Assembly (NCBI RefSeq): GCF_023016265.1 | Contig: NZ_CP095412.1 | Span: forward strand, 2,852,001 to 2,916,000 | Direction of reading: 5' to 3' | Origin: Blastococcus sp. PRF04-17 | GTDB taxonomy: Bacteria; Actinomycetota; Actinomycetes; Mycobacteriales; Geodermatophilaceae | DNA: 64,000 nucleotides | In this document: positions 2,186 to 43,748 of the stretch, piece after piece | How positions within the stretch are numbered: the stretch's first letter is position 1 | Layout of the letters: the number at the start of each line of letters is the position of its first letter | Program-made: the position numbers and the translations under genes | Notes under the pieces: generated by a model | What the model saw: only the letters and a program-made list of their open reading frames with translations | What the model was told of the DNA's origin: nothing | The model's database searches: none

Positions 2186-2187
2186 CC

Positions 2188-3351
2188 GTGGAGGCACGGG
2201 TGGAGGAAGGGCGGCTCCTGACCGTCGGCGGTGATCCGGGCGGCACGCGCCTGGAGGCATGGGACCGGTTGGTGCGGTCGTGCCCGACGGCCGACGTCGC
2301 CCAGCTGTCGGCCTGGGCGCGGGTCCGCTCGCAGGCCGGCTACCGCGCCCGGTACGTCCTCGTCGAGGAGTCCGGGGAGGTGGTCGGTGGCGCCCAGGTG
2401 CTCGTGCGGCGGCTGCCTCTCGTCGGGGAGATCGGCTACGTCCCCTACGGCCCGCTGGTCGCCCCGGGAGTCGCGGGCCGGGCCGAGGTCGCCGACGCCG
2501 TCGCGCGGGGCCTGCGCGACCTGGCGGTCCGCCACACCCGGATGCTGTTCGTCCAGCCCCCCGAGGACGGGGAGGACGTCGCCGGGGCGCTGCGGCACGC
2601 CGGATTCCGGCCCTCCGCAGCCGAGGTGGCGCCCCGGGCGTCGGTGCACGTCGACCTCACCGCCGACGAGGAGCGACTGCGCCGCGGACTCAGTCGCCGG
2701 TTGCAGCAGTGGACGCGAGTGTGGGGCAAGCGGGGGGTCACGGTCCGGCAGGGCGACAGCACGGACCTGCCCCTGCTCGCCGATCTGCTCGCCCAGACAG
2801 CCGAGCACCAGGGGTTCACCCCGTTCGGGCTCGACTACCTGCAGGTGATGCACCGTGAGCTCGCCGCCGACGGGCACCTCGCCGCCTTCGTCGGCGAGGT
2901 GGACGGTCGGCCGGTCGCCATGTGCCTGCTGACCGGCTGCGGTTCGGTGCTCCGCTCGCGGCTGATGGGCCTCGACCGCAGCGACCAGGCTTCGCGTCTC
3001 AACGTGTCGGCCGCGGTCTTCTGGACGGCGATGCTCTGGGGCAGGAGCGCCGGTTACCGCTGGTTCGACTTCGGCGGCCTGCTGCCCGAGTCGGTGCCGG
3101 CCGTGCTCGGCCCGCAGCCTCCGCGGCCCGACGACCTCGCCGGCATGGACCGGTACAAGCTCCGGTTCGGGGGCTCGCCGTACCTGTGCCCGGAACCTTT
3201 GGAGCTCATCCCGTCACCGCTGGTCCGCAGGGCCTACGACCTCGCCCGCGGGTCGTCGGCGGGGTCGCGCCTGCTCGCGACGGCTCAGCGCGCGGCCCGG
3301 GCAGGGGCGGTCCTGCGGCCCGGCCTTGCTCGACGGCGGAGGCAACCATGA
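2188..3351 (+). CDS. FemAB-like GNAT transferase
   Basis: A ~387-residue protein starting at GTG 2188, 2 bp after the previous stop (GTG 2200 is an alternative). Two GNAT-like halves are visible: an N-terminal half with YVLVEESGEVVGGAQVLVRR and IGYVPYGPLVAPGV, and a C-terminal half with LRRGLSRRLQQWTRVWGKRG, FVGEVDGRPVAMCLLTG, and WFDFGGLLPES followed by DRYKLRFGG. The closing 'GG...YKLRFGG' pattern is typical of lipid II:glycine-glycyltransferase/FemAB relatives. It is adjacent to a second member of the family, so the two may modify the same glycan or peptide. The stop overlaps the next ATG (ATGA). Confidence 0.8.
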   Translation: MEARVEEGRLLTVGGDPGGTRLEAWDRLVRSCPTADVAQLSAWARVRSQAGYRARYVLVEESGEVVGGAQVLVRRLPLVGEIGYVPYGPLVAPGVAGRAEVADAVARGLRDLAVRHTRMLFVQPPEDGEDVAGALRHAGFRPSAAEVAPRASVHVDLTADEERLRRGLSRRLQQWTRVWGKRGVTVRQGDSTDLPLLADLLAQTAEHQGFTPFGLDYLQVMHRELAADGHLAAFVGEVDGRPVAMCLLTGCGSVLRSRLMGLDRSDQASRLNVSAAVFWTAMLWGRSAGYRWFDFGGLLPESVPAVLGPQPPRPDDLAGMDRYKLRFGGSPYLCPEPLELIPSPLVRRAYDLARGSSAGSRLLATAQRAARAGAVLRPGLARRRRQP

Positions 3352-4025
3352 TCAAGTTGGTGTTCGCGACGCTCGTGAAGCCGCCGTACGTGCGGATTCG
3401 CGGGGCGGTGCAGACGGCGATGTTCGACCGGCGCTACGGCGTCGAGACCGAGGGCCTGGTCAGCACCGCGGACGCCGGGGTGACCGATCCGCACAGCATG
3501 CACTACCTACCCGCCGGCGTGCTGAGCCTGCGCCGCATCCTCCCGCCCAGCAGCGTGGGGCCCGACGACGTCTTCGTCGACTTCGGCTCCGGCAAGGGGC
3601 GGATCGTCCTGCAGGCGGCCCTGCACTATCCGTTCCGGGCGGTGTACGGCGTCGAGCTGTCCGAGTCGCTGCACACGGTGGCCGAGCGGAACGTGGCCAC
3701 GCTGCGCGACCGCTTCCGGTGCCCCGAGGTGCATCTCCTCCAGGGTGACGCGCGCACCGTCGACCTGCCCGACGACGTCACCGTCGTCTACCTCTACAAC
3801 CCATTCCGCGGCGCCGTGTTCGCCGACGTCGTCGACCGCCTGATCGCCTCGGTGGACCGCAATCCGCGGCGCATGCGGATCGTCTACGGCAACCCCGAGG
3901 AGGAGGCGGCGCTGCTGGCCACCGGGCGGGTGCGGCTGCTGCGCGCAACCCGCGGCTGGCGTCCGAGCCGCGAGTGGTCACGGTCGAACTCGTTCCGGCT
4001 GTACGAGGTCACCCCCAGGAGCTGA
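3348..4025 (+). CDS. Class I SAM-dependent methyltransferase
   Basis: 225 residues from ATG 3348, with GGAGG at 3338-3342 and a 4-bp overlap with the previous gene. The SAM-binding core is clear: FVDFGSGKGRIVLQAAL (motif I, about residues 76-92), YGVELSES (acidic end of strand 2), LLQGDARTVDLPDDVTVVYL, and YLYNPF in the motif-IV position. The methyl acceptor cannot be read from sequence. As the last gene of a sugar-transferase/FemAB operon it may methylate a sugar of the surface glycan. The gene converges with 4037-5421 with only 11 bp between the stops. Confidence 0.85.
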   Translation: MIKLVFATLVKPPYVRIRGAVQTAMFDRRYGVETEGLVSTADAGVTDPHSMHYLPAGVLSLRRILPPSSVGPDDVFVDFGSGKGRIVLQAALHYPFRAVYGVELSESLHTVAERNVATLRDRFRCPEVHLLQGDARTVDLPDDVTVVYLYNPFRGAVFADVVDRLIASVDRNPRRMRIVYGNPEEEAALLATGRVRLLRATRGWRPSREWSRSNSFRLYEVTPRS

Positions 4026-4036
4026 GGGACGGCGGG

Positions 4037-5421
4037 TCAGCGCCCCTTGTCCTTCTTGGCCTTATCGGCCTTCTCTTTGTCGGCCTTCTCTTTGTCGGCC
4101 TTCTCTTTGTCGGCCTTCTCTTTGTCGGCCTTGGCCTTGTCCGCTTTCTCCTTGTCGGCCTTGGCCTTGTCCGCTTTCGCCTTGTCGGCCTTGGCCTTGT
4201 CCGCTTTCGCCTTGTCGGCCTTGGCCTTGTCCGCCTTGGCCTTGTCCGCCTTGGCCTTGTCCGCCTTGGCCTTGTCCGCCTTCTCCTTCTCCGCCTTCTC
4301 CTGCTTGGCCTTCTCCTCGTCGGCCGTGTTCGGCCGCGGCGCCGGCTGGGGTGCGGGCTGAGGTGCGGGCTGCGGCGCCGGCCGAGGTGCGGGCTGTGCC
4401 CCCGGCTGCGTCCCAGGTTGTGCCCCCGGCTGCGTCCCAGGTTGTGCCCCCGGCTGCGTTCCCGGCTGCGTCCCCGGTCGGGGCGCGGGCTGGGGTGCCG
4501 ATCCGGGCGAGCCGGCGCCCGGCGAACCGCCCTGCGCGGGGGCGCGGTCGGGGCCTGCGGCCCGGCACCCGCCCCGGGGTGCGACGCGCCCCCACGGGAC
4601 CCGGCCACGGCCGACCGCACCGCGTGCACCGAGCTCTCGACGAGGATCACGGGGAACAGCGCCGTGGACGAGGGCTCATCCGGCACTGCTCCGGGCAGCG
4701 CGGCCTGGGTGAGCACGACCGACCGCCGCCCCGAGTCGTCCAGGTCCGGCGCGCTGCTCTCCGCCCACTGCCCCCACAGCTCGCGGTCCAGCGCGACCGG
4801 CAGCACCGCGTCGGTCTGGGCGTCGCCGAGCAGCCCGCTCACCGTCTCGGTCACGGCCCGGGCGGTCAGCACGTCGCAGGCCGTGGCCTGGAGCCAGTTC
4901 TGGTCCTCGTGGCAGGCCGCCCGCTCCTCGACCGCCGGAGCCAGCTCGCGCACCAGCCCGGCGAACGTCTCGTAGACCGCCGAGCGCCCCTGGCCCGCCG
5001 GCCGGCTCGGCAGGAACGTCCGCAGTGAGTCGGCCATGGCCGAGGCGATCCGCGGTTCGGCGGTCGACAGCACGACCGCCGCCGGCCCGTCGGTGAGCGG
5101 CCACCGGACGACGTCCCCGGGCAGCAGGGTGACGTCGGCCTCGACCACCAGCCGGACCAGCGTCGAGCGCGGCCCGTCGGCCTGCCGCGCGAAGACCGGC
5201 GCACCGGTGCCGTCGGCCTCCGCCACCACCGGGAAGTCGAGGCCGTTGCGGAGCACGATCGTCCGACCGTCGACGCACGCCTCGAGCGCGAAGTTCGACG
5301 GCACCTGGCCGCGCACGTCGTCGTACCTGCAGAGGTCCGGCGCCGGCCCGGCGGCAGCGGAGCCCGGCACCCCGAGCAGGACCACCGCACCGGCCAGCGC
5401 CCAGGCCGCGACGCGCCTCAT
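4037..5421 (-). CDS. Secreted protein with Pro/Gln linker and Lys-rich ADKAK repeat tail, apparent frameshift
   Basis: A signal peptide (MRRVAAWALAGAVVLLGV, cut near AAA-GP) is followed by a ~230-residue domain I do not recognise, with cysteines in DLCRYDD, EACVDG, RAACHED and ATACDV that could form disulfides. In the first frame the protein then turns into Arg-rich nonsense. Adding one G to the five-G run at 4538-4542 restores a natural continuation: PTAP-type linker, several (G)TQPGAQP units, PAPQPAPRPN, then about 15 copies of the pentapeptide ADK(A/E)K, ending KKDKGR and TGA at 4037. The ATG overlaps the stop of the lipoprotein gene 5418-5882, so the two are probably co-translated. Role unknown; a polycationic tail could bind anionic wall polymers (inference). 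Confidence 0.65.
4048..4290 (-). repeat. 15-bp tandem repeat encoding ADK(A/E)K
   Basis: About 15 adjacent 15-bp units, each coding Ala-Asp-Lys-Ala/Glu-Lys in the frame that ends at 4037. Synonymous third-base changes (GCC/GCG, AAG/AAA) make two visible sub-types that alternate, suggesting expansion by recombination of larger blocks. On the plus strand the same bases read as an artificial Leu/Phe-rich hydrophobic ORF. Confidence 0.85.
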
Positions 5422-5882
5422 GTCGGGAACTCGCAGATCGGCTGCGCCGCCCGGCCGACGTCGGACAGCCCGTCGGCGATCCGGTCGGTCGACTCCTCGT
5501 CCAGCGGCCCCGAGGCGGCCAGGGACAGCGCCTGGACCAGTTCGTCGAGAGCGCCCGCCAGCTCACCGTGCCCGCCCTCCGCCCGGACGGCGTCCCGGAC
5601 GTCGCGGAGCTCGCCGGCGCTGCGGCTGAGCCGCCAGGCCTGCTGGGTGTCGGCGGGGTCGTCCAGCAGCACACCGACGGCGTCGGGGATCTGTTCGACG
5701 TGCTCGGTGGCGGCGAGCGTCGTGCAGAACTCGGGTGCGCCGGCCGGGGGCTGCCAGTCGGAGAGGCCGGCGACCGCCGGCTCGGTGTCGCCGCGCTCGG
5801 TCGCGGGCGCCTCGGACGACCCGGTGCAGCCGGCCACCAGAAGGCAGGCTGACGCCGCGACCGTCACTCCCCGCAGCCGCAT
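5418..5882 (-). CDS. Small lipoprotein of unknown function
   Basis: 154 residues beginning with a lipoprotein signal: MRLRG, a hydrophobic stretch, and the lipobox LVAGC at about residues 15-19. A Ser/Thr/Glu-rich spacer precedes a mainly helical domain (TEHVEQIPDAVGVLLDDPAD, LVQALSLAASG) ending in PICEFPT. I do not recognise the family. Its stop overlaps the ATG of the repeat-tailed secreted protein by 4 bp, so the pair is likely one transcription unit, exported together and acting at the cell envelope. Confidence 0.7.
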   Translation of the reverse strand: MRLRGVTVAASACLLVAGCTGSSEAPATERGDTEPAVAGLSDWQPPAGAPEFCTTLAATEHVEQIPDAVGVLLDDPADTQQAWRLSRSAGELRDVRDAVRAEGGHGELAGALDELVQALSLAASGPLDEESTDRIADGLSDVGRAAQPICEFPT

Positions 5883-5924
5883 GAGGCGAAGCTAGGGGCT
5901 CGCGCGGCGTTCCGCAGCTCCAGT

Positions 5925-7172
5925 TCACCCGGTCGACGGAATCGGGGGCCAGGAGGCGTCACCCTCCGTCACCACCGGCTTCCCGAGCAGGCGGTCGTAG
6001 GCGGCCAGGTAGGTCCGCTTCTGGGCCTCCCAGGTCAGTGACCGGCAGCGCTCCCGCGCCGCGGCGACCAGCGACCGGCGGCGCTCCGGGTCGTCGTGGA
6101 GGGCGACCAGTGCCTCGGCCAGGCTCTCCGCCGAGCCCGGCTCGAAGTACTGCACCGCGTCGTCGCCGAGGTAGCGGGCGGTCGACCGCAACCGGCTGGC
6201 GACGACCGGCAGGTCGAAGAGCACGTACTCGTACATCTTGTTCGTGTGCACGAGGTGCGAGTACGGCGAGCCCTTCTGCGCCACGACTCCGACGTCGGCA
6301 CGCTGCAGCTCACCGACCAGGGTGGGCATGTCCACCCAGCCCAGGTACTGCACCCGGTCGGCCACACCTTCGGCCTCGATGAGCCGCTGCAGCTCGTCGA
6401 CGTAGTCCCCGGTCCCGGTGATCCGCAGTCGCAGGTCCGGCAGCCGATCGGCGGTCATCGCCACCGCCCGCAGCATCAGGTCGTGGCCGTAGCGGTCGTC
6501 GACCAGGCCGTGGCAGACGGCGGTGAAGTACCGCGGGTCGGGCCGGGCGTCGTCGGTGCGGTGCTCGAGCAGGTGCCGCGCGTCGGGGCCGTTGAGCACC
6601 ACCACGATCTTGTCCGGGTCGGCGCCGCGGCCGACGTAGACCTCCTTGAGGTCCTCGGTCACCGTGAACGCCAGATCGACGTAGCGCAGGGCCGCCTGCT
6701 CCACCCACTGCAGCACGCGCCCCAGCCGCCGGGAGCCGTACTTCGTCTCGCCCAGTTCGGGCGTCGGCTCCTTCATGAACGCGATCGCCTTGGCACCCAG
6801 CAGCCGCGGCACGAGCGCGGTGAACGCCAGGATGTCGGGCATCGAGTTGGCCTGCACCGCGACGAAGGGCCGCTGCAGGTGCAGCTTGGCCACCGTGACC
6901 GTCGCGGCGAGGAAGAAGCCCAGGTAGTCCAGCACGTAGTTCAGCGGGCCGCCGCGGCGCCGGCGCAGCGGCAGCCGGTGCAGCGTCACGCCGCCGTCGA
7001 CCTCCACCGCGGGGGTGCCCGGCTCGCGCAGGCAGACGATGTCGACGTCGAAGCCGGCGTCCCGCAGGGCCTCGGCCTCCCGCCGCAGGGAGAGCTCGTA
7101 GTAGTCGCGCTGCCGCACCAGGCAGACCCGGCCCCGGCCGCTCGTGGGGTCAGGAGCCCGTCGCAGCCGCAT
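5925..7172 (-). CDS. Glycosyltransferase family 4
   Basis: 415 residues with GT-B architecture: an N-terminal acceptor domain (VCLVRQRDYYELSLRREAEA, then a MPDILAFTALVPRLLGAKAI stretch) and a C-terminal nucleotide-sugar domain containing VVVLNGPDARH, LRLRITGTGDYVDELQ, YLGWVDMPTLVGELQRADVG and NKMYEYVLFDLPVVASRL. The EX7E-like region is the GT4 signature in which the retaining enzyme binds the donor. It acts at the cytoplasmic face in polysaccharide assembly. The ATG lies 23 bp inside the end of the GH5 gene, indicating translational coupling. Donor and linkage are not predictable. Confidence 0.88.
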   Translation of the reverse strand: MRLRRAPDPTSGRGRVCLVRQRDYYELSLRREAEALRDAGFDVDIVCLREPGTPAVEVDGGVTLHRLPLRRRRGGPLNYVLDYLGFFLAATVTVAKLHLQRPFVAVQANSMPDILAFTALVPRLLGAKAIAFMKEPTPELGETKYGSRRLGRVLQWVEQAALRYVDLAFTVTEDLKEVYVGRGADPDKIVVVLNGPDARHLLEHRTDDARPDPRYFTAVCHGLVDDRYGHDLMLRAVAMTADRLPDLRLRITGTGDYVDELQRLIEAEGVADRVQYLGWVDMPTLVGELQRADVGVVAQKGSPYSHLVHTNKMYEYVLFDLPVVASRLRSTARYLGDDAVQYFEPGSAESLAEALVALHDDPERRRSLVAAARERCRSLTWEAQKRTYLAAYDRLLGKPVVTEGDASWPPIPSTG

Positions 7173-8292
7173 CGGCCACCTCCGTGTCGTAGCTGCGGCC
7201 GTAGTCCAGCCGCCAGTAGTGGTGCGCGGTGTAGCGCACCGCGCCGAGCGGGTCGTCGATCCACGCCCGTGGGTGCTGCTGAGCCCAGCCGCCCACGTGC
7301 GAGTACGCGTAGCCGGCGACCATGATCAGCGTGTCGTCGCCGGTGGCGCGGATCGCGTCGACGGCGTCCTGTGACGCCGCCTCCCACAGCCGGGCCGGCG
7401 GGAGCCCGTCGGCCGCGGGCATCCGGGCCGGCTCGTTCATCAGGTCGTAGGCCAGCACGCCGGGGACGTCGGCGAACGCCGTGCTCAGCCGGCGCCAGAG
7501 GTCGGCGAAGTCGGCGCGCGAGACCTGCGGGCTGCCGATCGGGCGGCGCACCCCGCGGCCGTCCTCGGCCAGGTGGTAGGCGCCGAAGTTGTGCACGTCG
7601 AGGACGACGCCGAGCCCGGCCTGGTGCGCCCGGCCGACGGCTGCGGTCAGCCGGGCGACCTCGCCGGCGTCGAGCTCGCCGCCCGGGCGCGGCTGTACCC
7701 GCTCCCAGCGGAAGGGCAGCCGGACGGTGTCCAGGCCCTGCTCGGCGAGGTAGTCGAAGGTCGCCTGCCCGTCGTAGTGCCAGTCGCGGCCGTAGGTGCC
7801 GGGGTTGTCGTTGGAGAAGTCGGTGACGTCCTCGGTGCTGCCGGCCGCGCCGAACTCGCCACCGGACACGTTCACCCCGCGCCGCAGGTCGGTGCGGCGG
7901 GCGTCCGCGCTGAAGAGTTCCCCGGACGGGCGGGCGACCGACACGGGACGGTCGTCCTCGGGGGCGACCCAGGGGCTGTAGTCGTAGTCGGTGCCCCACC
8001 ACTCGCCGGTGGCCCAGACGTCCACCCAGAGGCGGGCGCGTTCGGCGTCGGCCAGCCAGGCCCGGGCCAGGCGCAGCCAGCGCCCGTCGCCGTCCGACGG
8101 GATGCCGACCTCGCCGATGTAGCCCTGGGCGTCGTTCTCCTCGAGCCACGTGGTGAACTCGGCCAGGTCGTCGAGGACCTTGCGCTGCAGGGCGTCACCG
8201 GCGTGCGGCTGCCGCGCGTCGACGGCGTCCCCGCCGACGCCGGTGACCATCAGCGCGGCCACGACGGCCAGGACGACGACCCGGCTGGTCAC
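7150..8292 (-). CDS. Secreted GH5-type glycanase, apparently circularly permuted
   Basis: 380 residues from GTG 8292, with a hydrophobic export signal at about 5-20. GH5/cellulase motifs are all present but in rotated order. Residues ~35-90 carry what is normally the C-terminal end: FTTWLEENDAQGYIGEVGIP with the nucleophile Glu (about E61), then WVDVWATGEWWGTDYDYSPW. Residues ~130-380 carry what is normally the N-terminal part: RRGVNVSGGEFG, DTVRLPFRWERVQP, VVLDVHNFGAY, DLMNEPARMP with the acid/base Glu (about E287), and YTAHHYW at the end. It probably hydrolyses or trims the exported glycan outside the membrane. It overlaps the polymerase gene by 4 bp and the GT4 gene by 23 bp. Confidence 0.8.
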   Translation of the reverse strand: MTSRVVVLAVVAALMVTGVGGDAVDARQPHAGDALQRKVLDDLAEFTTWLEENDAQGYIGEVGIPSDGDGRWLRLARAWLADAERARLWVDVWATGEWWGTDYDYSPWVAPEDDRPVSVARPSGELFSADARRTDLRRGVNVSGGEFGAAGSTEDVTDFSNDNPGTYGRDWHYDGQATFDYLAEQGLDTVRLPFRWERVQPRPGGELDAGEVARLTAAVGRAHQAGLGVVLDVHNFGAYHLAEDGRGVRRPIGSPQVSRADFADLWRRLSTAFADVPGVLAYDLMNEPARMPAADGLPPARLWEAASQDAVDAIRATGDDTLIMVAGYAYSHVGGWAQQHPRAWIDDPLGAVRYTAHHYWRLDYGRSYDTEVADAAATGS

Positions 8293-9752
8293 GGGCCGAC
8301 CCGCTCGGCCGGGGCAGCGATCAGCGGCGGCTCCGGCGGCGGCGCGGCACGGCGCCGGTCCAGGGCCGCGGCCAGCGCGAGCAGGACGAAGAGCAGCTCC
8401 GCTCCGCCGCGCAGCGTGAGGTGCGGGTCGAAGACCATGAGCACCGTCAGCGCCACCGACGCCGCGAAGACGCTCACGCCGACGGCAGCGGCCACCGGCT
8501 CCGGCGCCGTCCACAGCCGCCGGCCGGTCGTGGCCGCGACCGCGACGAGGGCCAGCGTGGCCAGCAGCAGCGGCAGGCCGCCGCTCCAGACCAGCCAGGT
8601 GTAGCCGCTCTCGATGTAGACCCAGTCCCGCCACCACTCGGCGCCGGGCACCCGCGCTGCGGGGCGCACGCCCAGCAGCCAGTTCCAGTCGGCACCGATG
8701 TCGGGCCAGAAGTAGGTCTGCAGGTTCTCCAGCCGGCCGTAGCGCCCGGTCCAGGAGACCGGGAGGCCGCTGCGCGGGTCGGTGTTGCCCAGGCGCGCCT
8801 CGACCACTGGTTGCAGGAGGGGGAGCGCGACGATGCCCACGCCGGTGGCCACCAGCACGGCCCGGCTCAGCGTCCGCGTGGCCACGGTGAAGGCCGCGGC
8901 AGCCACCACGACGCCCAGCAGCACCGAGAACTGGCCCGACGCCAGACCGCAGAGCAGCAGGAAGGCGGCGGCGGCGGTGAGCACGGCCCGGTGCTCCCGC
9001 CCCCGCAGGGCCAGGGCCGCGGCGGCGAGCGCGGCGTAGATCATCACGTCGCCGAAGGCGATCGGGTTGCCGAGCGTCGAGGTGGCCCGGCTGCCGTCGA
9101 TGCTGTAGCCGTCGGCCTCGGGCGGGGTGAGGACGGTCAGGAAGTCGATCACCGGACCGACGCCGACCACCTGCAGCAGGCCGACGGAGCCGACGGCGGC
9201 GGCACCCGCGACCGCGGCCACGAGCAGCCACCAGGCCGCCCGGGCGTCGCGCACGACCAGGCGGACGACGGCGTAGACCAAGGCGAGCTTCCAGAGCGTG
9301 GCGGCGTAGAGCACGTCGTCGGCGGAGATGTCGCGGCCGCGGGCGTACATCCACAGCAGCGGGGTGACCGAGCCGGTGACGGCGACGACCGGCACGAGGA
9401 CGTCCAGGGCGTGCCGGGGCCGGGGCAGCCCGCGGTCCGAGCGCAGCCAGCGCAGCAGCGCCCACAGCGCGACCCCCGCGGCCAGGCCGAGCAGCAGCGC
9501 CTCGTTCAGCCGCACCAGGGGGACGACGGTGCCGCGCTCGACCCCCGCGAGCAGGGGGTTGACCGCCACGAACACCGCCACCGCCGCCAGGGGGAACAGC
9601 GCGCACAGCAGCACCAGCAGCAGCCCGCCGCTGATCACGAGGCCGGCGCCGGGCGCACCCGCCAGCACGGGCGTGGCGGCCAGGGCCACCGCGAGCAGCC
9701 CCGCGGCGGGCCGGAGGAGGTCCCGCGCACCCACGGCGGAGGGCTCAGCCAT
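8289..9752 (-). CDS. O-antigen ligase/polymerase-like membrane protein (Wzy type)
   Basis: 487 residues with about 11-12 hydrophobic helices and the O-antigen ligase/polymerase layout: a large extracytoplasmic loop after the eighth or ninth helix (VEARLGNTDPRSGLPVSWTG, then YFWPDIGADWNWLLG and ESGYTWLVWSGGLP). The segment RATSTLGNPIAFGDVMIYA matches the conserved 'R..GT..nPn.fg' signature of the Wzy_C family. It would polymerise repeat units or transfer glycan at the outer membrane face. It lies between the MurJ-like flippase gene (8-bp overlap) and the GH5 gene (4-bp overlap), consistent with a flip-polymerise-process operon. Confidence 0.82.
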   Translation of the reverse strand: MAEPSAVGARDLLRPAAGLLAVALAATPVLAGAPGAGLVISGGLLLVLLCALFPLAAVAVFVAVNPLLAGVERGTVVPLVRLNEALLLGLAAGVALWALLRWLRSDRGLPRPRHALDVLVPVVAVTGSVTPLLWMYARGRDISADDVLYAATLWKLALVYAVVRLVVRDARAAWWLLVAAVAGAAAVGSVGLLQVVGVGPVIDFLTVLTPPEADGYSIDGSRATSTLGNPIAFGDVMIYAALAAAALALRGREHRAVLTAAAAFLLLCGLASGQFSVLLGVVVAAAAFTVATRTLSRAVLVATGVGIVALPLLQPVVEARLGNTDPRSGLPVSWTGRYGRLENLQTYFWPDIGADWNWLLGVRPAARVPGAEWWRDWVYIESGYTWLVWSGGLPLLLATLALVAVAATTGRRLWTAPEPVAAAVGVSVFAASVALTVLMVFDPHLTLRGGAELLFVLLALAAALDRRRAAPPPEPPLIAAPAERVGP

Positions 9753-11397
9753 GCGCCGCTCCCCCGCGCCGCCGCGCCCGCACCGCGGCGGTGAGCTCGC
9801 GCAGCTCGGGCGTCCGCAGCACCGCGTGCGCGGCGACGTAGCTCGCCAGCCCCACGGCGCCGGCGGCCAGCACGAGCCCGACCGCCGCCGCCTGGCTCGC
9901 CGGGTTCCCGATCAGGGCCATGACGCCGAGCATCGGCGCCAGGGAGACCAGGCCGGCGGTGACCGGCCGGAGCACCGTGCCGCGCCACGATCCCGGGGAC
10001 GGCGCGGCCCCGGCGGGCCGGCCGACCCACCACCACAGCAGCGCTCCGGCCAGCAGGTCGCTGACCGCGACGCTCAGCGCCACCCCGACCAGCAGCGCGG
10101 GCCCGTCGAGGAGCAGGGCGGCGGCCAGCATGCCGGCGATCGCCAGGGCGGCCCGCAGCACGACGGCGCGCAGCGGGTGGGTGCCGTTGCGGCGGGCGTA
10201 GCCGGCCTGGGTGCCGAGGACGACCGCGGACTCCCCCACGACGCCGATACCCAGCCCGACGAGGCAGGCGGTCAGGGCCGCCCGGCCGGTGTCGCCGGCC
10301 ATCTCCCCGAACGCGACGGCGGTGGCCAGCGGGCCGCTGAGCAGCACGTACCAGAGCGCGGCGGGCAGCGTGGCCAGCAGCACCAGGCTCGCCGTGCGGC
10401 GGAAGGTGGCGGCGAACGCGGCGTCGTCGCCGCGGTGGTGCGCCCGCGCCAGGACCGGCAGGGTGGCCGAGGCGACCGGCCGGGCGACCAGGGCGACCGG
10501 CAGGTTGTAGAAGGCGTAGGCCATGGTGAACGCCACCACGCCGCCGGGCACGGCCGCGGTCACGACCAGCACGCAGAGGTACCGCACCGTGGTGGCGGCC
10601 GCGTAGCCGAGCGAGGGCCGCACGAGGCGCAGCAGGTCGCGGACCTCGCCGTCGCGGGCTCCCCGGAACCGTGGCCGCAGCCGCACACCGCAGCGGCGGG
10701 CGCCCTCCCACTGGACGGCGGCGTGCAGGAGCACCGCGCCCGTGGTGCCGGCGCCCAGCAGCGCCACCTCGGCCGTGCCCTGCCCTGCGGTGGCGCCGGT
10801 GCCGAAGACCGCCGCGTAGACCGCGAGCACCGCGACGATGCCCAGGTTCTCGGCGCAGGGTGCCGCGGCGGCCAGGCCGAACCGGCCGTGGGCGTGCTGC
10901 ACGGCGGCGCCCATGCCGGCGACCAGGTACAGCGGCACCTGCAGCAGCAGGAGGGCCAGCAGGAGCCAGGCCGGACCGGTGCCCGGCGCGCGGGCCTCGT
11001 CGGGCACGCCCGCGGTGAGCAGGTCCAGCACCAGCGGCCCGGCGAGGATCGGCACGGCCACGACGGCCAGCGCGGCGAGCACGGCGAGGGTCAGGAAGCT
11101 GCTGGCCATGAACTCGGCCGCGCCGGGGCGGCCGCGGTCCAGGTGGCGGACCAGCGCGGGCACCACCAGCGAGCCGAGCAGCGCGCCGGTGAGCAGCTCG
11201 AAGGCCAGGCTGGGCAGCTGGTTGGCCGCCGCGTACAGGTTGGCGAAGAACGTCGGGCCGAGCACGGCGCCGACCGCGACCACGCGCAGCAGGCCGGTGA
11301 CCCGGCTGACCGTCGTCCACAGGGAGCCGATGGCCGAGTTCGCCGCGACACGGCGCAGGTCGCCGCCGTCGGCGGCGAGGGCGGGGGCGCGGTCCAC
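9745..11397 (-). CDS. MurJ/MviN-like lipid-linked oligosaccharide flippase
   Basis: 550 residues, about 14 membrane helices, with the MOP-exporter signature near the N-terminus: NSAIGSLWTTVSRVTGLLRV followed by FANLYAAANQLPSLAFELLT, as in MurJ. GTG start at 11397, 2 bp from the stop of the Wzz-like gene. MurJ moves lipid II across the membrane, but the location inside a glycan cluster suggests this copy flips the polyprenyl-linked repeat unit. The loop TTTVRYLCVLVVTAAVPGGV and the later arginine-rich loops fit the family; I see no kinase or peptidoglycan-binding extension. Confidence 0.85.
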   Translation of the reverse strand: MDRAPALAADGGDLRRVAANSAIGSLWTTVSRVTGLLRVVAVGAVLGPTFFANLYAAANQLPSLAFELLTGALLGSLVVPALVRHLDRGRPGAAEFMASSFLTLAVLAALAVVAVPILAGPLVLDLLTAGVPDEARAPGTGPAWLLLALLLLQVPLYLVAGMGAAVQHAHGRFGLAAAAPCAENLGIVAVLAVYAAVFGTGATAGQGTAEVALLGAGTTGAVLLHAAVQWEGARRCGVRLRPRFRGARDGEVRDLLRLVRPSLGYAAATTVRYLCVLVVTAAVPGGVVAFTMAYAFYNLPVALVARPVASATLPVLARAHHRGDDAAFAATFRRTASLVLLATLPAALWYVLLSGPLATAVAFGEMAGDTGRAALTACLVGLGIGVVGESAVVLGTQAGYARRNGTHPLRAVVLRAALAIAGMLAAALLLDGPALLVGVALSVAVSDLLAGALLWWWVGRPAGAAPSPGSWRGTVLRPVTAGLVSLAPMLGVMALIGNPASQAAAVGLVLAAGAVGLASYVAAHAVLRTPELRELTAAVRARRRGGAAHG

Positions 11398-11399
11398 GG

Positions 11400-12064
11400 T
11401 CAGGTGGTCCTGCCCCGCCCCCGCCGGAGACGCAGGAGGGCCAGCAGGAGGCCGGCCAGGAAGATCCCGAGGAGCAGCCCGGCGGCGCCCGCGCGCACCG
11501 GGTCGGGGCCGACCGGCTCGTCGAGCACGTCGGAGGGCGCGAGCACGCGCAGCCGGCCGATGTCGGAGGTGACGGCGAGCCGGTCCGCCGAGGCGAGGTA
11601 CCGGTCGACGAGGTCGTCGAGGGTCTCGCGGGCACGCTCGGGGTCGGTGTCGACCAGCTGCACCCGCAGCACGCTGCTGCCGTCGACCGCCTCGACGGAC
11701 AGGTCGTCGGACAGTTCGTCGGCGGGACGGCCGGCGTCCGCGGCCACCTCCTGCACGAGCGGGCGCCGCTGGAGGAGGACCGAATGGGTGGCCATCTCCC
11801 GGTCGACGCCCTCGACGGTGCTGTTGTCCTCCGGCTGGTGGATGAGCTCGACGACGGCCGCGTACTCGGTGGGTTGCCGGGAGGCGAGGGCTGCCGCGGT
11901 GGCGGCCGGCGCGGCGACGAGCGTCAGCAGGACGAGTGCGAGCAGCGCCGTGCCGCGGCGCCGGCGGGGGTCACCAGCGGTGCGCGCACCGACGGCGGCG
12001 GCACCCCGGTGGTGGGCGAGGGCGGGGGGACCGTGCGGGGGGTGAGCGCGTCCGGCCGGGTCAC
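11400..12064 (-). CDS. Wzz-like chain-length protein, apparent frameshift
   Basis: The preferred start is GTG 12064, overlapping the aminotransferase stop (GTGA). That frame gives a short Pro-rich cytoplasmic N-terminus and then breaks; adding one G to the five-G run at 11966-11970 joins it to the frame ending at 11400. The joined protein (~222 residues) has two terminal helices (TALLALVLLTLVAAPAATAA and GAAGLLLGIFLAGLLLALLR) around an extracytoplasmic domain (TEYAAVVELIHQPED, VLRVQLVDTDPERARETLDD). This is the polysaccharide co-polymerase (Wzz/YveK) layout. There is no kinase domain. Confidence 0.7.
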
Positions 12065-13191
12065 GTCGGCCCCCGGCGGCGCCGCAGGACGTCGGCGAGC
12101 GCGTCACGGACGACGTCGACGTCCTCGAGGTCCATGTAGGGGTGCAGCGGGAGGGAGAGGATCTCCCGCGCCGCCTCGCTCGCGCAGGGCAGGGGCCCGT
12201 CGGCCCAGGCGGCGAACGCCGGCTGCTCGTGGCAGGGCACCGGGTAGTGGATGCCGGTCAGCACGCCGCGCTCGGCCAGTCCGGCGCGGACGGCGTCCCG
12301 GTCGGCCACCCGGACGACCAGCAGGTGCCAGGCGCTGTCGACGCCGACGTCGGGCTCGACGATGCGCAGCGGGAGGTCGGCCAGACGCTCGCGGTAGGCG
12401 TCGACGATCTTGGCCCGCCGCTGCGTCCAGGCGTCGAGGCGGGCGAGCTTGGCCGAGAGGACGACGGCCTGCACCGCGTCGAGGCGGCTGTTGGTGCCGA
12501 CGGAGGTGTGCAGGAACTTGTCGTCGGCCGCGCGGCCGTGGTCGGCCAGCGAGCGGATCGTCGCGGCCAGGGCGGCGTCGTCGGTGGTGACCGCGCCGGC
12601 GTCACCGAAGGCCCCGAGGTTCTTGCCCGGGTAGAAGCTGAAGCCGGCGGCCCGGCCGGTGGATCCGGCCCGCACGCCGTTGCGCTCGGCGCCCTGGGCC
12701 TGGGCGGCGTCCTCGACCAGAGCGAGGCCGTGCCGCCGCGCCACCTCGGCGAGGCCCTCGACGTCGGCGACGTGGCCGAACAGGTGCACGGGCACGATGG
12801 CGGCGGTCGACGGGGTCAGCGCCGCCTCGGCGCCCTGGGGGGTCATCAGCAGCGACGTGGGGTCGACGTCGACGAAGCGGGGACGGGCGCCGGCCAGCAC
12901 CACGGCCTCGGCGGTGGCGATGAACGTGTTGGCGGGCACGAGCACCTCGTCGCCGGGACCGATACCCAGCGCCCGCAGGATGAGGTGCAGCGCGTCGGTT
13001 CCGTTGGCCACGGCGACGGCCTCGGCCGTGTCGCAGTAGGACGCGAACGCCCGTTCGAACCGCTCGACCGGGGCGCCGCCGACCCAGGCGTTGCCGTCGA
13101 GCAGCCGGCGCCAGCCGTCCTCCACCTCGGCCCGGATCTCGGCGGTGGTCGGCGCGAGGTCGGAGAAGGGGATGACCCGGTCGTTCACCAT
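12061..13191 (-). CDS. DegT/DnrJ/EryC1-family PLP sugar aminotransferase
   Basis: 376 residues from ATG 13191 (GTG 13188 possible). It shows the fold-type I nucleotide-sugar aminotransferase pattern: VANGTDALHLILRALGIGPG (cofactor phosphate region), VPANTFIATAEAV, PVHLFGHVADV, VEDAAQAQGA, and the PLP lysine in FSFYPGKNLGAFGDAGAV. The family converts keto-sugars to amino-sugars, for example dTDP-3-keto or UDP-3-keto sugars. Paired with RmlB in the same strand block and a Gfo/Idh dehydrogenase upstream, it probably makes an amino-deoxy sugar for the glycan. A TAGCGT at 13196-13201 (minus strand) is a possible -10 for a very short leader. Confidence 0.9.
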   Translation of the reverse strand: MVNDRVIPFSDLAPTTAEIRAEVEDGWRRLLDGNAWVGGAPVERFERAFASYCDTAEAVAVANGTDALHLILRALGIGPGDEVLVPANTFIATAEAVVLAGARPRFVDVDPTSLLMTPQGAEAALTPSTAAIVPVHLFGHVADVEGLAEVARRHGLALVEDAAQAQGAERNGVRAGSTGRAAGFSFYPGKNLGAFGDAGAVTTDDAALAATIRSLADHGRAADDKFLHTSVGTNSRLDAVQAVVLSAKLARLDAWTQRRAKIVDAYRERLADLPLRIVEPDVGVDSAWHLLVVRVADRDAVRAGLAERGVLTGIHYPVPCHEQPAFAAWADGPLPCASEAAREILSLPLHPYMDLEDVDVVRDALADVLRRRRGPT

Positions 13192-37603: not shown

Positions 37604-38640
37604 TCAGCGGGGAACGGAGCGAACCTCGCCGACGCGGGCGGCCAGTCGTTCCTTCTGCGGGACGACGATGTACTTCGGATCCTTGGTGCTGGCGATCCCC
37701 GCCTCGAAGACACCGAAGCGGGTGAGCAGCGAGCCGGCCGCCAATAGCGTTCCTGACGCAACCCGCCCGGCACGCCAGCGCCCGGCCACGACGGCGAGCC
37801 CGAGCCCCGAGGTGGTGCACGCCTTCGCGGCTCGCATGAACTTGCCCGGCCGGCCCTCGTGATACGGCTCGGACAGGATGCTGTCGCTCTCCTCCACGCC
37901 GCGCACCGCGACCAGCTCGATGCCCGCGCCGAGGATCGCCATCTTGCGCGCCGGCTCCGACTCGCTCAGCGGCGTCAGCGCCATGCAGATGCCGCCCCCG
38001 GCGGCCATCGCCGATGCGCCGAACACGTACGGCAGCTTGCCGTGGAACTCGTGCCACGACGGCACCGCGGTGTTGGCCAGCAGCACACCGGTGTAGGTGG
38101 CCAGCGGCCCGCCGAACAGCGCCGCCACCACTCCCCGAACCGCTTCAGCCGCGGGAACCAGCCCAGCAGCTCCACCGCGGCCGTCGCCCCGGCCGCCGCG
38201 CTGAACGGCGACAGGATGTAGGTGCCCACCGACAGCGGCGACGTCGGCTTGAACACCCGCAGCATGTGCAGGAAGCGCTCCGGCCGCCCGAGGTCGTGCA
38301 CGAGAAACACCACCGACGCCATCGCGCCACCGGCCGAGGTCAGCCGCGCGACCTTCGTCAGCTTCGGCCGGCCGGTGACGTCGGCCAGCGCGGCCAGGAT
38401 CGACGACGAACCCGCCGCACCACCGAGGAACAGGTACAGCGGCACGTCCGGCGACTTCCACACCGGCGTCTTGACGATCTGCCGCCCGTAGTACGAGGTG
38501 AACTCGACGTCGTCGACCATCGGCACCTCGCCGCGGCCGCGCCCACCGCCGCGCCGGCGGCGCTTGCCGGTCCGCTGCGTGGCCGGGCCGCGGTCGGCCT
38601 GGCGCCAGCCGGCCTCCGGGCTGGTGATGCCGCCGGTCAT
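37604..38640 (-). CDS. nrfD: NrfD/PsrC-like membrane anchor of formate dehydrogenase, apparent frameshift
   Basis: ATG 38640 lies 1 bp past the stop of the iron-sulfur subunit. After a basic N-terminus it reads SYYGRQIVKTPVWKSPDVPL, YLFLGGAAGSSSILAALADV, VVFLVHDLGRPERFLHMLRV (the NrfD 'DLGRP..f.ml' signature) and SPLSVGTYILSPFSAAAGAT. The frame breaks after LKRFGE; adding one C near 38131 restores VVAALFGGPLATYTGVLLAN and the rest to 37604. The anchor passes electrons from the iron-sulfur subunit to the quinone pool. About eight helices are expected in the joined protein. Confidence 0.8.
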
Positions 38641-38641
38641 G

Positions 38642-39706
38642 TCACCTCTTCCTCGAGCCGAGCACGGCCGTGAGCGCGACCCCGACCATCATGACCGCCG
38701 CCTTGCCCGCGGCCTTCCACATGGCCGGCAGGTCGCGGGTGGTCACGATCGGGTCCGGCGGCAGCCCGTAGACCTCCGGCTCGTCGAGCAGCAGGAAGAA
38801 CGCGCCGGCTCCCCCGACGCCGTCGTTCTCGTCCCGCCCGTACAGCCGTGCGGTCTCCACGCCCTGGGCCTGCAGCGTCGCCAGCCGGGCGTCGGCCCGG
38901 GCCTGCAGCTCGTCGAGGTCGCCGTACTGGATCGACTGGGTGGGGCAGGCGGTGGCGCAGGCCGGCTGCAGCCCGTCGGTCAGCCGGTCGTAGCACATCG
39001 TGCACTTGAAGACCCGGCCGTCGTCCTTGCGCTGGTCGATGACGCCGTATGGGCATGAGGCCACGCAGTAGCCGCAGCCGTTGCAGATGTCGCCCTGCAC
39101 GACGACGGTGCCGAATTCGGTGCGGAACAGCGCCCCGGTCGGGCACACGTCGAGGCACCCGGCGTGCGTGCAGTGCTTGCAGACGTCGGAGCTCATCAGC
39201 CAGCGGATCTGCTTGTCCGCGCCGCTCTGTCCCGTCTGCGGGTCGAACTCGCTCAGCGCCTCGGCGTTGAGCACGCTCTGCTGGGCGTTGGCCAGGCTGA
39301 CGTCGCTGCCAGACTCGGCGGGCGACGGGCCGCCGTCCTGCCGGTCGTCGCCGGGGCGCCCGAACGTCGGCATCGGCAGGTCGACCGCGCGGCTCTGCTC
39401 GATGAACGCGACGTGCCGCCACGAGTTGGCACCCAGCTGGCCGGTGTTGTCGAAGGACATCCCGGACAGGCCGATCGCGTCGCGGACGCCGTGCGAGTCG
39501 TCCATCGGCAGCGTGTTCCACTCCTTGCACGCCACCTCGCACGCCTTGCACCCGATGCAGACCGACGTGTCGGTGAAGAACCCGACCCGCTTCGGGTGCT
39601 CCTCGACGTAGCCGGACTGCTCCGCCACGTCGGGCACCGGCCCGTACAGCCGGTTGCCCGGGTCGCGGCCGGTGAACGCCGCGCTCACCGAGCTGATCGT
39701 GGTCAC
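38642..39706 (-). CDS. fdhB: Formate dehydrogenase iron-sulfur (beta) subunit
   Basis: 354 residues from GTG 39706. Four 4Fe-4S cluster motifs: CIGCKACEVACKEWN (about 50-64), CKHCTHAGCLDVCPTGA, CNGCGYCVASCPYGVI, and CTMCYDRLTDGLQPACATAC. The layout equals FdnH/FdoH of formate dehydrogenase N/O, and a C-terminal helix (AVMMVGVALTAVLG) anchors it. It passes electrons from the molybdenum subunit to the NrfD-like anchor. It is parted from fdhA by a divergent toxin-antitoxin pair of about 600 bp. Confidence 0.93.
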   Translation of the reverse strand: MTTISSVSAAFTGRDPGNRLYGPVPDVAEQSGYVEEHPKRVGFFTDTSVCIGCKACEVACKEWNTLPMDDSHGVRDAIGLSGMSFDNTGQLGANSWRHVAFIEQSRAVDLPMPTFGRPGDDRQDGGPSPAESGSDVSLANAQQSVLNAEALSEFDPQTGQSGADKQIRWLMSSDVCKHCTHAGCLDVCPTGALFRTEFGTVVVQGDICNGCGYCVASCPYGVIDQRKDDGRVFKCTMCYDRLTDGLQPACATACPTQSIQYGDLDELQARADARLATLQAQGVETARLYGRDENDGVGGAGAFFLLLDEPEVYGLPPDPIVTTRDLPAMWKAAGKAAVMMVGVALTAVLGSRKR

Positions 39707-39751: not shown

Positions 39752-40018
39752 GTGAAGACGGCCATCTCCATTCCGGACCACACCTTCGCCGAAGCCGACC
39801 GCCGTGCCCGCGAGTTGGGGCTCAACCGCTCGCAATTCGTCACCAGGGCGATCGAGAGGTACCTGAACGAGTTGGCCGAAGGCGACGACCTCACCGACCG
39901 CATCAACGCGGCCCTGGACGCTGCCGGTCCGGAGGACCCCGACGACATCGCCGTTCGCAAGGCGGCCACGCGGGCAGCCTTCGCCCGGCTCGATGCCGAG
40001 GACGGCGGCTGGGCGTGA
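39752..40018 (+). CDS. Ribbon-helix-helix antitoxin (MazE/CopG type)
   Basis: 88 residues from GTG 39752. The DNA-binding N-terminus reads VKTAISIPDHTFAEADRRA with ELGLNRSQFVTRAIERYLNE, the beta-strand then helix-turn-helix of RHH antitoxins. The acidic C-terminus (EDPDDIAVRKAATRAAFARL) would cap the toxin. The stop overlaps the toxin GTG by 4 bp. Confidence 0.85.
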   Translation: MKTAISIPDHTFAEADRRARELGLNRSQFVTRAIERYLNELAEGDDLTDRINAALDAAGPEDPDDIAVRKAATRAAFARLDAEDGGWA

Positions 40019-40359
40019 TCCAACGGGGCCAGGTCCGCTGGGCAGATCTGGGGCCACCCCGCGGGAGCGCACCCGCACTGCGGCGCCCGGTGCTCGTGGT
40101 GCAGATCGACCGGCTGTCCCGCTCTCGGATCGCGACGGTTGCGGTCGTGATCCTGACGTCGAATCTGCGCCTGGCTGAGGTGCCGGGCAACGTCCTCGTG
40201 AAGCCGGAGGACTCCGGCCTGCCCGACCCTTCGGTCGTCAATGTGAGCCAGCTGGTCTCGGTGGACAAGGCATTCCTGGACGACCAACCTCGAGGTCTGC
40301 TGCCGCTGGACGTCATGGCCCGCGTCGATGCCGGCCTGCGGCTGGTGCTCGGGCTCTGA
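40015..40359 (+). CDS. MazF/PemK-family endoribonuclease toxin
   Basis: 114 residues from GTG 40015. Characteristic start IQRGQVRWADLGPPRGSAPA (MazF 'G.i..v.l.p..G'), RRPVLVVQIDRLSRSRIATV, VVILTSNLRLA, GNVLVKPEDSGLPDPSVVNV (with the 'l...S.v.v..l' strand) and QLVSVDKAFL. The family cuts mRNA at short sequence motifs. The pair lies between fdhA and fdhB on the opposite strand. Confidence 0.9.
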   Translation: MIQRGQVRWADLGPPRGSAPALRRPVLVVQIDRLSRSRIATVAVVILTSNLRLAEVPGNVLVKPEDSGLPDPSVVNVSQLVSVDKAFLDDQPRGLLPLDVMARVDAGLRLVLGL

Positions 40360-40457: not shown

Positions 40458-43400
40458 TCACAGGTGCGAACCCTCTCCTGCCTCGGCGGCGACCGGGTCC
40501 CGGCCGTTCACGCCCACCCGGCCGGAGTCGACCCCGGCCCGCCGCCGGTAGGACTCCACGAACTCGATCAGCTCGGGCCCGCGCGGGCGCCGGCCGGCCA
40601 CGATGTCACAGCTGCTGACCTTGGACTCCTGGATGTGCGTGTTCGGGTCCATGACGATGCCCAGCAGGTCGTTGGCCGCGTCGCCGGTCGAGATGCCGGC
40701 GTAGGACCAGTGGTAGGGCATGCCGATCTGGTGCACGACGGTGCCGTCGCGCAGCCTGATCGGCCGCACCCGCTCGGTGACCAGCACCTTGGCCTCGACC
40801 GCCGTCCGCGCGCTGACCAGCGTGGCGTACTCGTTGTTCCGCAACCCGCGCAGCTCGGCGAGCTCCGGGCTCACCTCGACGAAGAACTCCGGCTGGAGCT
40901 CGGCCAGGTAGGGCAGCGTGCGGCTCATCGCACCGGCCGTGTGGTGCTCGGTGAGCCGGTAGGTGGTCACCTGGAACGGGAAGACGTCGCTGCGCGTGGG
41001 GTTGGCCCGGTTCCACGGCCCCTCGATCTTCTCCAGCGTCGGGTTGTCCTGCTGCTTGTAGAGGCCGTTCTCGACCACCGACTCGGCCGGCTCGTAGTGC
41101 GTCGGCAGCGGCCCGTCGACCAGCCCCGCCGGCGCGAACAGCCACGCCTTGCCGTCGCCCTGCATGACGAACGGGTCGTTGCCGGCCAGCGCGTCCTGCG
41201 CCCGCGCGCCTTCGGGCGGCACGTAGTCCGGCCGCTTGTTCTTCTCGAAGTCGGGGATGTCCAGCCCGGTCCACTCACCGGCGTCCTCGTCCCACCACAC
41301 GTACTTCTTGCGTTCGCTCCACGGCTTGCCGTCGGGGTCGGCCGAGGCACGGTTGTAGAGCATCCGGCGGTTGAGCGGCCAGGCCCAGCCCCACTCGGAC
41401 GCGACCGGGCCCTGCTCCTTGCCGGGCTTGCGCCGCCGCGCCTGGTTCACCTCGTCGGCGTAGACGCCGCAGTAGATCCAGCAGCCACCGGTCGTCGAGC
41501 CGTCGTCCTTCATCTGCATGTAGGACGACAGCGCCCGGCCGTCGGGGCCGACGCCGTTGATCTCGCGCAGCACGGCCTCGGCGTCCGGCTCCCGCCGCTC
41601 GCCGTGCATCGGGTAGTCCCAGGTGAGGTCGAGCAGCGCGCGGTCGCGCGGATCGGTCGAGTCCTTCAGCCGCTCGCGGAGGATCCGGCCGAGGTGGAAG
41701 TAGAACCACAGGTCGCTGCGGGCCTCGTTGGGCGGCTCGACGGCCTTGTCCCGCCACTGCAGCACGCGCTGGGTCTGGGTGAAGGTGCCTTCCTTCTCCA
41801 CGTGCGTGGCCGCCGGCATGAAGAAGACCTCGGTGCCGATCGAGTCGGGCGACAGCTCGCCCGTCTCGTGCTCCGGGCCCTCCTTCCAGAAGGTCGCCGA
41901 CTCGATCATCTGCAGGTCGCGGACGACCAGCCAGTCGAGGTTGGCCAGCCCGAAGCGGTTCATCCGGCTGTTCGGGTGCCCGACGCCCGGGTTCTCACCG
42001 ACGAGGAAGTAGCCCGAGACCTCGCCGCGGATCATCGCGGCGATCGTCTGGTACGAGCTGTGGTCGCCGGTGATCCTGGGCAGGTAGTCGAAGCAGAAGT
42101 CGTTCTCCGCCGTCGCCGCGTCGCCCCACCAGCTCTTGAGCAGGCTGACCATGTAGGCGCGCTTGTTGCCCCAGAAGCCGGCCTTGCCGGCGGCGTCGGC
42201 CACGTACTCCTCGAGGCTGCCGTGCTGCAGGGCGTGCGGCATCGGCAGGTAGCCCGGCAGCAGGTTGAACAACGTCGGGACGTCGGTGGAGCCCTGGATG
42301 CTGGCGTGCCCGCGCAGCGCCAGGATTCCGCCGCCCGGTCGGCCGATGTTGCCCAGCAGCGTCTGCAGGATCGAGCACGTGCGGATGTACTGCGCGCCCA
42401 CGCTGTGCTGCGTCCAGCCCACCGAGTACACCCACGCCGTCGTCCGGTCGCGGTTGCTGTTCTCGGTCACCCACTTGGCGACCTGCTCGAAGACCGCGGG
42501 TTCGATGCCGCAGACCTCGGAGACCATCTCCGGCGTGTAGCGGGCGAAGTGCCGCTTGAGGATCTGGAACACCGTGCGCGGGTGCTGCAGCGTGTCGTCG
42601 CGCTTGGGCTTGGCGGGGATCGGCGGACCGCCGCTGCCGGCGGCCTGCGCGCGGTCGGCGTGCTGGACGTCGGGGTGGTCCTCCAGCTGGTCCTGCTCGG
42701 CGGCCTCGGCCGGGTTGTCCGACCCCGAGTGGGGCGGCTCCTCGGGCTGGTACTGCCAGCTGTCCTCGTCGTAGGTCCGGCTCTCGGGATCGAACCCGGA
42801 GAACAGGCCGTCGAGGTCCTCGGCGTCGACGAAGTCCTCGCTCACCAGTGCCGCGGCGTTGGTGTAGGCGGCCACGTACTCCTTGAAGTACAGCTCGTGG
42901 GTGAGCACGTAGTTGATCAGCCCGCCGAGGAACGCGATGTCGGTGCCGATGCGCAGCGGGACGTGCAGGTCGGCGATCGCGCTGGTCCGGGTGAAGCGCG
43001 GGTCGATGTGCACGATCTTGGCGCCGCGCGCCTTGGCCTCACCGACCCACTGGAAGCCCACCGGGTGGCACTCGGCCATGTTCGAACCCTCGATGACGAT
43101 GCAGTCGGAGTTCGCCAGGTCTTCCAGGAAGTTGGTTGCGCCACCACGGCCGAACGAGGCACCCAGACCGGGCACCGTCGCGGAGTGCTATATGCGCGCC
43201 TGGTTCTCGATCTGGATCGCGCCCAGGGCGCTGTAGAGCTTCTTCATGAGGTAGTTCTCCTCGTTGTCGAGGGTCGCCCCTCCGAGGCTCGCTATCCCCA
43301 TGGTGCGGTTGACGCGCTTGCCGCCGTCCTCGTCCTGCCAGCCCTTGCGCCGGGCCTCCAGCACGCGGTCGGCGATCATCTCCATCGCTGTGTCGAGGTC

Positions 43401-43748
43401 GAGGTCCTCCCACTCCGTCCCGAACGGACGGCGGTACTTGACCGTGGTGACCCGGGTCGGGCTGGTGACCAGCTGCTTGCTGGCGCTGCCCTTCGGGCAG
43501 AGCCGGCCGCGGTTGATCGGTGAGTCCGGGTTGCCCTCTATCTGGACGACCTGCTCGTCCTTCACGTACACGTTCTGCGCGCAGCCGACGGCGCAGTACG
43601 GGCAGACGCTCTTCACGACGCGGTCGGCGGTCGCGGTCCGCGACACCGTCGCCTCGGTGCCCTTGCTGCGCGCGGCCTTGCCGCGACCCATCGGGTCGGT
43701 GCCGGTCAGCTGCCGGTATACCGGCCACGCGTCGAGCCAGGTCTTCAC
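40458..43748 (-). CDS. fdhA: Formate dehydrogenase alpha subunit, selenoprotein with UAG-encoded selenocysteine
   Basis: 1096 residues if the in-frame TAG at 43190-43188 is read through. N-terminal 4Fe-4S site SVCPYCAVGCAQNVYV and LCPKGSAS; then ALGAIQIENQARI, TAG, HSATVPGLGASFGRGGATN. In E. coli FdnG the same place is ARV-Sec-H followed by FGRG and TN, so the TAG sits exactly at the catalytic Sec (residue 187). Further motifs: VGFQWVGEAKARGAKIVHID, VDPRFTRT-like IDPRFTRTSAIADLH, GWTQHSVGAQYIRTC, and TYRLTEHHTAGAM near the end. It oxidises formate at a Mo-bis-MGD centre. There is no twin-arginine signal, and residues ~338-382 are an acidic/Pro-rich insertion absent from FdnG. Confidence 0.92.
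43158..43190 (-). promoter_or_regulatory. SECIS-like hairpin directly after the UAG codon
   Basis: After UAG (43190-43188) and 11 nt, the RNA reads GGUGCCC-GGUCU-GGGUGCC: a 7-bp stem (43176-43170 with 43164-43158, two of the pairs G-U) closed by the loop GGUCU. The bacterial SECIS recognised by SelB in E. coli fdhF also has a GGUCU apical loop at this distance. The hairpin lies within the coding sequence, as usual for bacterial SECIS. Confidence 0.85.

Follow-up and report, generated by a model that had tools for sequence, protein, structure and literature searches.

The window, that is, the whole stretch of 64,000 bases analysed here (2852001-2916000 in the single 4,585,415-base contig of the soil bacterium Blastococcus sp. 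PRF04-17, a genome with a completeness of 95.89 %), contains on its minus strand an fdhA gene (40458..43748). Its product, the catalytic subunit of a formate dehydrogenase (FDH) of the FdnG type, is 1096 aa long when the in-frame TAG at residue 187 is translated as selenocysteine (Sec). Reading of the open frames in the window found one internal stop in the frame 43748-40458, this TAG (43190-43188, minus). The read-through protein matched NF041513, the NCBIfam model for actinobacterial formate dehydrogenase, along residues 4-1070 with 1909.4 bits (cut-off 1400), and TIGR01553 (formate dehydrogenase-N alpha) with 928.6 bits for a cut-off of 814.2, placing it among the FdnG-type enzymes. The sequence-only reading had described the TAG as the sole interruption of fdhA, at the Sec position of FdnG, with frame and homology intact on either side, and both the frame and the extent of the model match agree with it. 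The context, QARI-TAG-HSATVPGLGASFGRGGATN, corresponds to that of TGA codon 196 of E. coli fdnG, and a degenerate Sec-site pattern matched once in the window and never in 100 shuffles. Frame reading, site pattern and the TAG present in relatives all point to the UAG at 43188..43190 as the Sec codon of fdhA.

Downstream, the iron-sulfur (beta) subunit of the FDH is encoded at 38642..39706 (minus); its match to TIGR01582 (177.6 bits) is below the cut-off of 334.7, and relatives also have a beta-subunit match 3' of the fdhA Sec site. The NrfD-type membrane subunit (37631..38520, minus), recognised by profile and by alignment with relatives, shows a change of frame near 38122-38125. The gene is a single frame in each of the 25 relatives listed and is shifted, among these, only in the copy of the window, so that the enzyme of this strain may be incomplete, or the assembly may contain indel errors. 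A PemK/MazF-type toxin gene (Pfam PF02452, window 39755-40356, plus) separates fdhA from the beta-subunit gene and runs in the other direction; it is preceded by a frame that by eye looks like an antitoxin. Among 84 loci of 8000 bases from relatives, this toxin had a match, a distant one, in L146 only.

Decoding machinery and SECIS hairpin

A single tRNA-Sec scored above the Rfam cut-off in the genome (1595587-1595678, minus, 66.8 bits for a cut-off of 47), with eight weaker matches falling below. ARAGORN reads its anticodon as CTA/CUA, not UCA, and for this reason gives it the name 'tRNA-Pyl'. The gene is flanked by selA-selB and, on its other side, by selD; in locus L009 these are found at 7483-9237 (selB, minus), 9234-10541 (selA, minus) and 11510-12538 (selD, plus), all above the cut-offs of the TIGR00474/TIGR00475/TIGR00476 set. 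The earlier reading had proposed to look in the same genome for a CUA tRNA-Sec together with selA, selB and selD, and all four are present; neither a tRNA-Sec repertoire limited to UCA nor a lack of sel genes, which it had named as contrary findings, was encountered. The SelD of this genome reads GGGCACKIP, with Cys in the motif, a position at which some SelD proteins carry Sec.

In the mechanism that we propose, tRNA-Sec(CUA) would first be charged with serine, SelA would turn the serine-charged tRNA into Sec-tRNA using selenophosphate supplied by SelD, and SelB would deliver the product while binding a SECIS hairpin directly 3' of the UAG. Recoding of UAG would then occur only where a SECIS accompanies it. 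The ARAGORN label would better suit a different decoding, in which UAG is read as pyrrolysine or, by an amber suppressor, as an ordinary amino acid. Against this, the tRNA fits the Rfam tRNA-Sec model and adjoins selA and selB, a SECIS follows the codon, and 20 sequences fetched from other families have TGA (Sec) or TGC (Cys) at this position. In addition, PylS had no better match in the genome than one of 23.4 bits, for a cut-off of 178.15, so that pyrrolysine is not supported; we regard this decoding, in either form, as highly improbable.

The opposite possibility is that the UAG mostly terminates, yielding a truncated peptide with negligible read-through. The genome does encode release factor RF1 (477 bits), and other genes seem to terminate at UAG. 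A rough gene call covering the window and L009, without the first half of fdhA, had TGA closing 33 of 37 genes, TAG three and TAA one, and the UGSC gene of this genome also terminates with TAG. UAG thus seems to retain its stop meaning and not to have been reassigned generally; with RF1 kept and TAG apparently terminating other genes, recoding must depend on context. In the relative G024 (L180) one UGSC gene has a TAG at the Sec site and again as its final stop. Termination as the main fate of the fdhA codon is at odds with the frame of 905 codons that follows it, with full homology and a GC3 of 0.97, and with covariation at silent sites of the RNA among relatives, and we consider it just as improbable as pyrrolysine or suppression.

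This covariation belongs to the putative SECIS, whose core GGUGCCC-GGUCU-GGGUGCC (43158..43176, minus) has its apical loop at 43169-43165, i.e. GGUCU at +22 to +26 counted from the T of TAG. A lower stem (43150..43183, minus) is predicted from single-sequence folding. Folded by itself the sequence was not more stable than shuffles (z of 0.71, -0.52 and -0.46 at three lengths), and the evidence for the hairpin is therefore comparative. We aligned 145 loci with the site (125 TAG, 17 TGA and 3 TGC) and counted only distinct sequences, since the TAG loci include genomes present in two collections. Pair 18-30 joins two silent sites, the third base of a Val codon (18) and that of a Gly codon (30). 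It is standard in 52/52 distinct TAG sequences, with CG, GT, GC and TA all occurring; the maximum in 20,000 shuffles, which ignore relatedness, was 39/52. When the 76 distinct TAG and TGA sequences were pooled, 518 of 532 cells paired, compared with 167-333 if the partner was slid by 1-3 positions, and the cells changed on both sides were 43 compared with 0-15. The outermost pair (15-33) is retained in 48/52 TAG but in only 8/17 TGA sequences. In the three relatives with TGC (Cys) the hairpin is broken, none of them pairing at 18-30 or at 19-29. By this comparison, the element would be a bacterial SECIS lying immediately 3' of its codon.

Distribution and origin of the UAG codon

Within the Geodermatophilaceae (112 genomes of 12 genera), exactly one TAG was found in the fdhA segment of 118 listed rows from 98 genomes, which are 98 of the 103 genomes of nine genera. 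Of the remaining five, four are assemblies only 67-81 % complete in which no full match was found, and the fifth is G079. Both fdhA copies of G079 are devoid of the stretch with the Sec codon and the SECIS, and its CUA tRNA-Sec is retained; the gaps (L165 near 4938-4939, L166 near 2350-2356) measure 95 and 76 bases relative to the window and have a common 3' end. In genus g7, two rows with TGA belong to a different FDH type, 36-37 % identical. The tRNA follows a similar pattern. The anticodon stem-loop CGGCCTCTAAAGCCG (CUA) was present in 101 of the 112 family genomes, all of them among the 103 of the nine TAG genera. The remaining two of these 103, G097 and G098, have no CUA stem-loop and no tRNA-Sec match at E 1e-9, and genera g5, g6 and g7 (nine genomes) are also without the stem-loop. 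Of 30 tRNA-Sec loci run through ARAGORN, 22 had a CUA anticodon and eight UCA; the tRNA-Sec found in g5, g6 and g7 account for seven of these eight, and a second tRNA of G058 for the last.

UGSC proteins had one TAG in 72 of 95 listed rows (48 genomes), none in 23 and TGA in 0, and AhpD-related proteins had a TAG within CFY-TAG-L in six genomes, indicating that the switch is not confined to fdhA. The UGSC copy of the genome studied here is the Cys form (CGAC) and the AhpD-related model had no match in it, leaving fdhA as the only Sec gene found here among the three families checked. The AhpD-related search also returned the only TAA row, from G028, discarded as a Sec codon with the TAA far upstream of the CTYC motif.

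Outside the family no TAG was seen in the listed rows. In an order-wide set of 397 genomes, the 65 fdhA rows listed from other families comprised 60 with TGA, 5 free of stops and 0 with TAG, and 20 loci fetched from such families had TGA (17) or TGC (3) at the exact site. We also scanned a named genome collection (one genome per species, 84,980 species) with a Sec-site pattern that allows only TAA or TAG, finds only the FDHs fitting it, and had been checked on the window and 30 fdhA loci. All 94 stretches recovered had TAG, and 91 of them were named Geodermatophilus, Blastococcus, Modestobacter, Trujillonella, Goekera or Geodermatophilaceae. The other three came from a Frankiales MAG (L089), a Marmoricola MAG (L135), which may be a binning error, and 'Bacillus sp. 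AZ43' (L137). A sequencing error or a pseudogene, i.e. a nonsense change in a former UGA or Cys gene, is conceivable given the frame change in the NrfD gene of the same operon and the completeness figure of this one-contig genome, but we judge it the least probable of all, close to negligible, given that a TAG shared at this site by 98 family genomes and by every stretch of the named collection is not private to this genome (a comparison with family FdhA proteins had been suggested beforehand), that the tRNA anticodon matches it, and that the 1096-codon frame is otherwise intact and the hairpin conserved.

A SelA tree, rooted by midpoint only, included 36 rows from 44 loci, eight having been omitted because SelA was missing or shorter than 250 residues. 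The 20 CUA rows formed one clade with a support of 100/100, present in 100 % of 200 bootstrap trees. The UCA rows included those of g6 and g7, in the same family, and of 8 of 13 loci from other families; in the other five no tRNA was found. The rows of g6 and g7 group weakly with other families, so that a simple history within the family does not emerge from this tree. With the CUA rows in one clade and the UCA rows elsewhere, the ancestral Sec codon was probably UGA, and codon and anticodon would most simply have switched together, a single time, on the branch ancestral to most Geodermatophilaceae, a direction that we infer from this arrangement. Going from TGA to TAG takes two base changes, both for the codon and for the anticodon, and these may have passed through a UAA/UUA intermediate; a living case of UAA-Sec was not among the 94 stretches of the TAA/TAG scan. 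UGA far outnumbers the other stops in the rough gene call, so that UAG may be spared competition from the main release factor, a possible reason for the switch.

The codon, the tRNA gene, the sel genes, the hairpin and their joint distribution are observed directly in these genomes, and from them we infer a Sec residue in the FdhA protein, the charging of the tRNA and the action of SelB. Altogether, we are very confident that the fdhA UAG is a Sec codon at which tRNA-Sec(CUA), SelA, SelD, SelB and the SECIS insert Sec, in a lineage that probably came from UGA and most simply switched a single time.

A relative with two tRNA-Sec genes

The fdhA stretch of G058 is 100 % identical over 7001 bases to that of Geodermatophilus sp. 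LHW52908. G058 has TAG in its fdhA and UGSC genes and a CUA tRNA system at L164, where SelA was matched and selB- and selD-like frames were recognised by eye. Its second tRNA-Sec, UCA according to ARAGORN, is on contig C17 (L163, 1169-1263, minus), close to a peroxidase- or AhpD-related frame (1570-2154, plus) with a single TGA at 1870-1872 in the context CFY-TGA-MESH. The protein of this TGA gene scored 112.5 bits against TIGR01926 (cut-off 81.8) and 51.7 against the AhpD_rel_CFYUT selenoprotein model, below its cut-off of 175; the next best match among the 112 family genomes had 40 % identity. In the hairpin predicted 3' of the TGA, an A-T pair closes a GTT loop; were this pair open, the loop would be AGTTT, as it is in three UGA-type FDHs. 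The hairpin lies two bases closer to the codon than in fdhA, and was no more stable than shuffles, of which 117/500 were at least as stable.

The first 18 kb of C17 have a GC of 0.69 (0.62 at 1501-6000), compared with 0.76 beyond, and contain an integrase-like frame; this end of the contig looks like a mobile island. On inspection, neither selA nor selB was noticed there. When seven genomes of the same genus were compared, C17 18371-19110 showed 91 % identity to one of them, G062, making plain contamination less likely; a mis-join is possible. In a plasmid search, the tRNA-Sec stretch of G058 had partial matches in 5 records, and protein relatives were found in 327 records, all below 60 % identity. 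In Arthrobacter and Tsukamurella plasmids, stretches of about 100 bases for which no gene is listed share 78 and 83 % identity with the tRNA-Sec(UCA) region of G058, hinting at putative tRNA-Sec genes on plasmids.

We put forward tentatively, as a scenario with somewhat less than even chances, that a single event took the Sec code of the clade from UGA to UAG and that UGA-Sec later came back into one member, G058. If true, the G058 cell would use two stop codons for Sec at the same time. Among the titles and abstract openings listed from the open literature, no paper was found in which a natural genome writes Sec with UAG as well as UGA.

Comparison with known systems

The Sec codon is commonly regarded as fixed at UGA. 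Mukai et al. 2016 reportedly described UAG-programmed selenoproteins in Geodermatophilaceae, the precedent invoked by the sequence-only reading. It is restated in the Secmarker paper (PMC5330540), which gives, with a citation of Mukai et al. 2016, a CUA tRNA-Sec in three Geodermatophilaceae genomes and UAG in the genes for FDH, UGSC and AhpC; the 2016 work is also cited in PMC7609411, and according to the review PMC10778597 some species recode UAG, UAA and sense codons to Sec. UAG-Sec was therefore already published for the family in 2016-2017. With its CUA tRNA-Sec and UAG in an FDH gene, the genome studied here has the same system and adds a further member. The present analysis contributes a count across the family, the grouping of the CUA rows in a single clade, a SECIS that covaries and, in G058, a candidate relative with two codes. 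Compared with the three such genomes in the set of the Secmarker paper, 112 family and 397 order genomes were searched here, and the single clade of CUA rows and the conservation of the hairpin with either codon go beyond that paper. The clade-wide swap to UAG with an unchanged SECIS core suggests that hairpin and SelB set the meaning and that the codon is free, and Geodermatophilaceae would be a well-placed natural case of code change. Annotation pipelines likely split such UAG-Sec genes in two.

Pyrrolysine systems share UAG and a CUA tRNA with this one, but here the tRNA is of the tRNA-Sec type, a SECIS is present and no PylS was above the cut-off. The UGA-type FDHs from the order's other families, of which 17 were fetched, are 78-82 % identical over a segment of 167 aa and have the same SECIS core, but with TGA as the codon; the tRNA-Sec adjoining the selA loci of other families is UCA in 8/13, with none found in 5, and here it is CUA. 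E. coli FdnG shares the position of the Sec codon, and both FdnG and FdhF share the distance and loop of the hairpin, the loops of fdhF (GGTCT) and fdnG (AGTCT) being at the same positions as here. The anticodon of E. coli tRNA-Sec is UCA and the codon of FdnG and FdhF is UGA, whereas in this genome the codon is UAG and the anticodon CUA.
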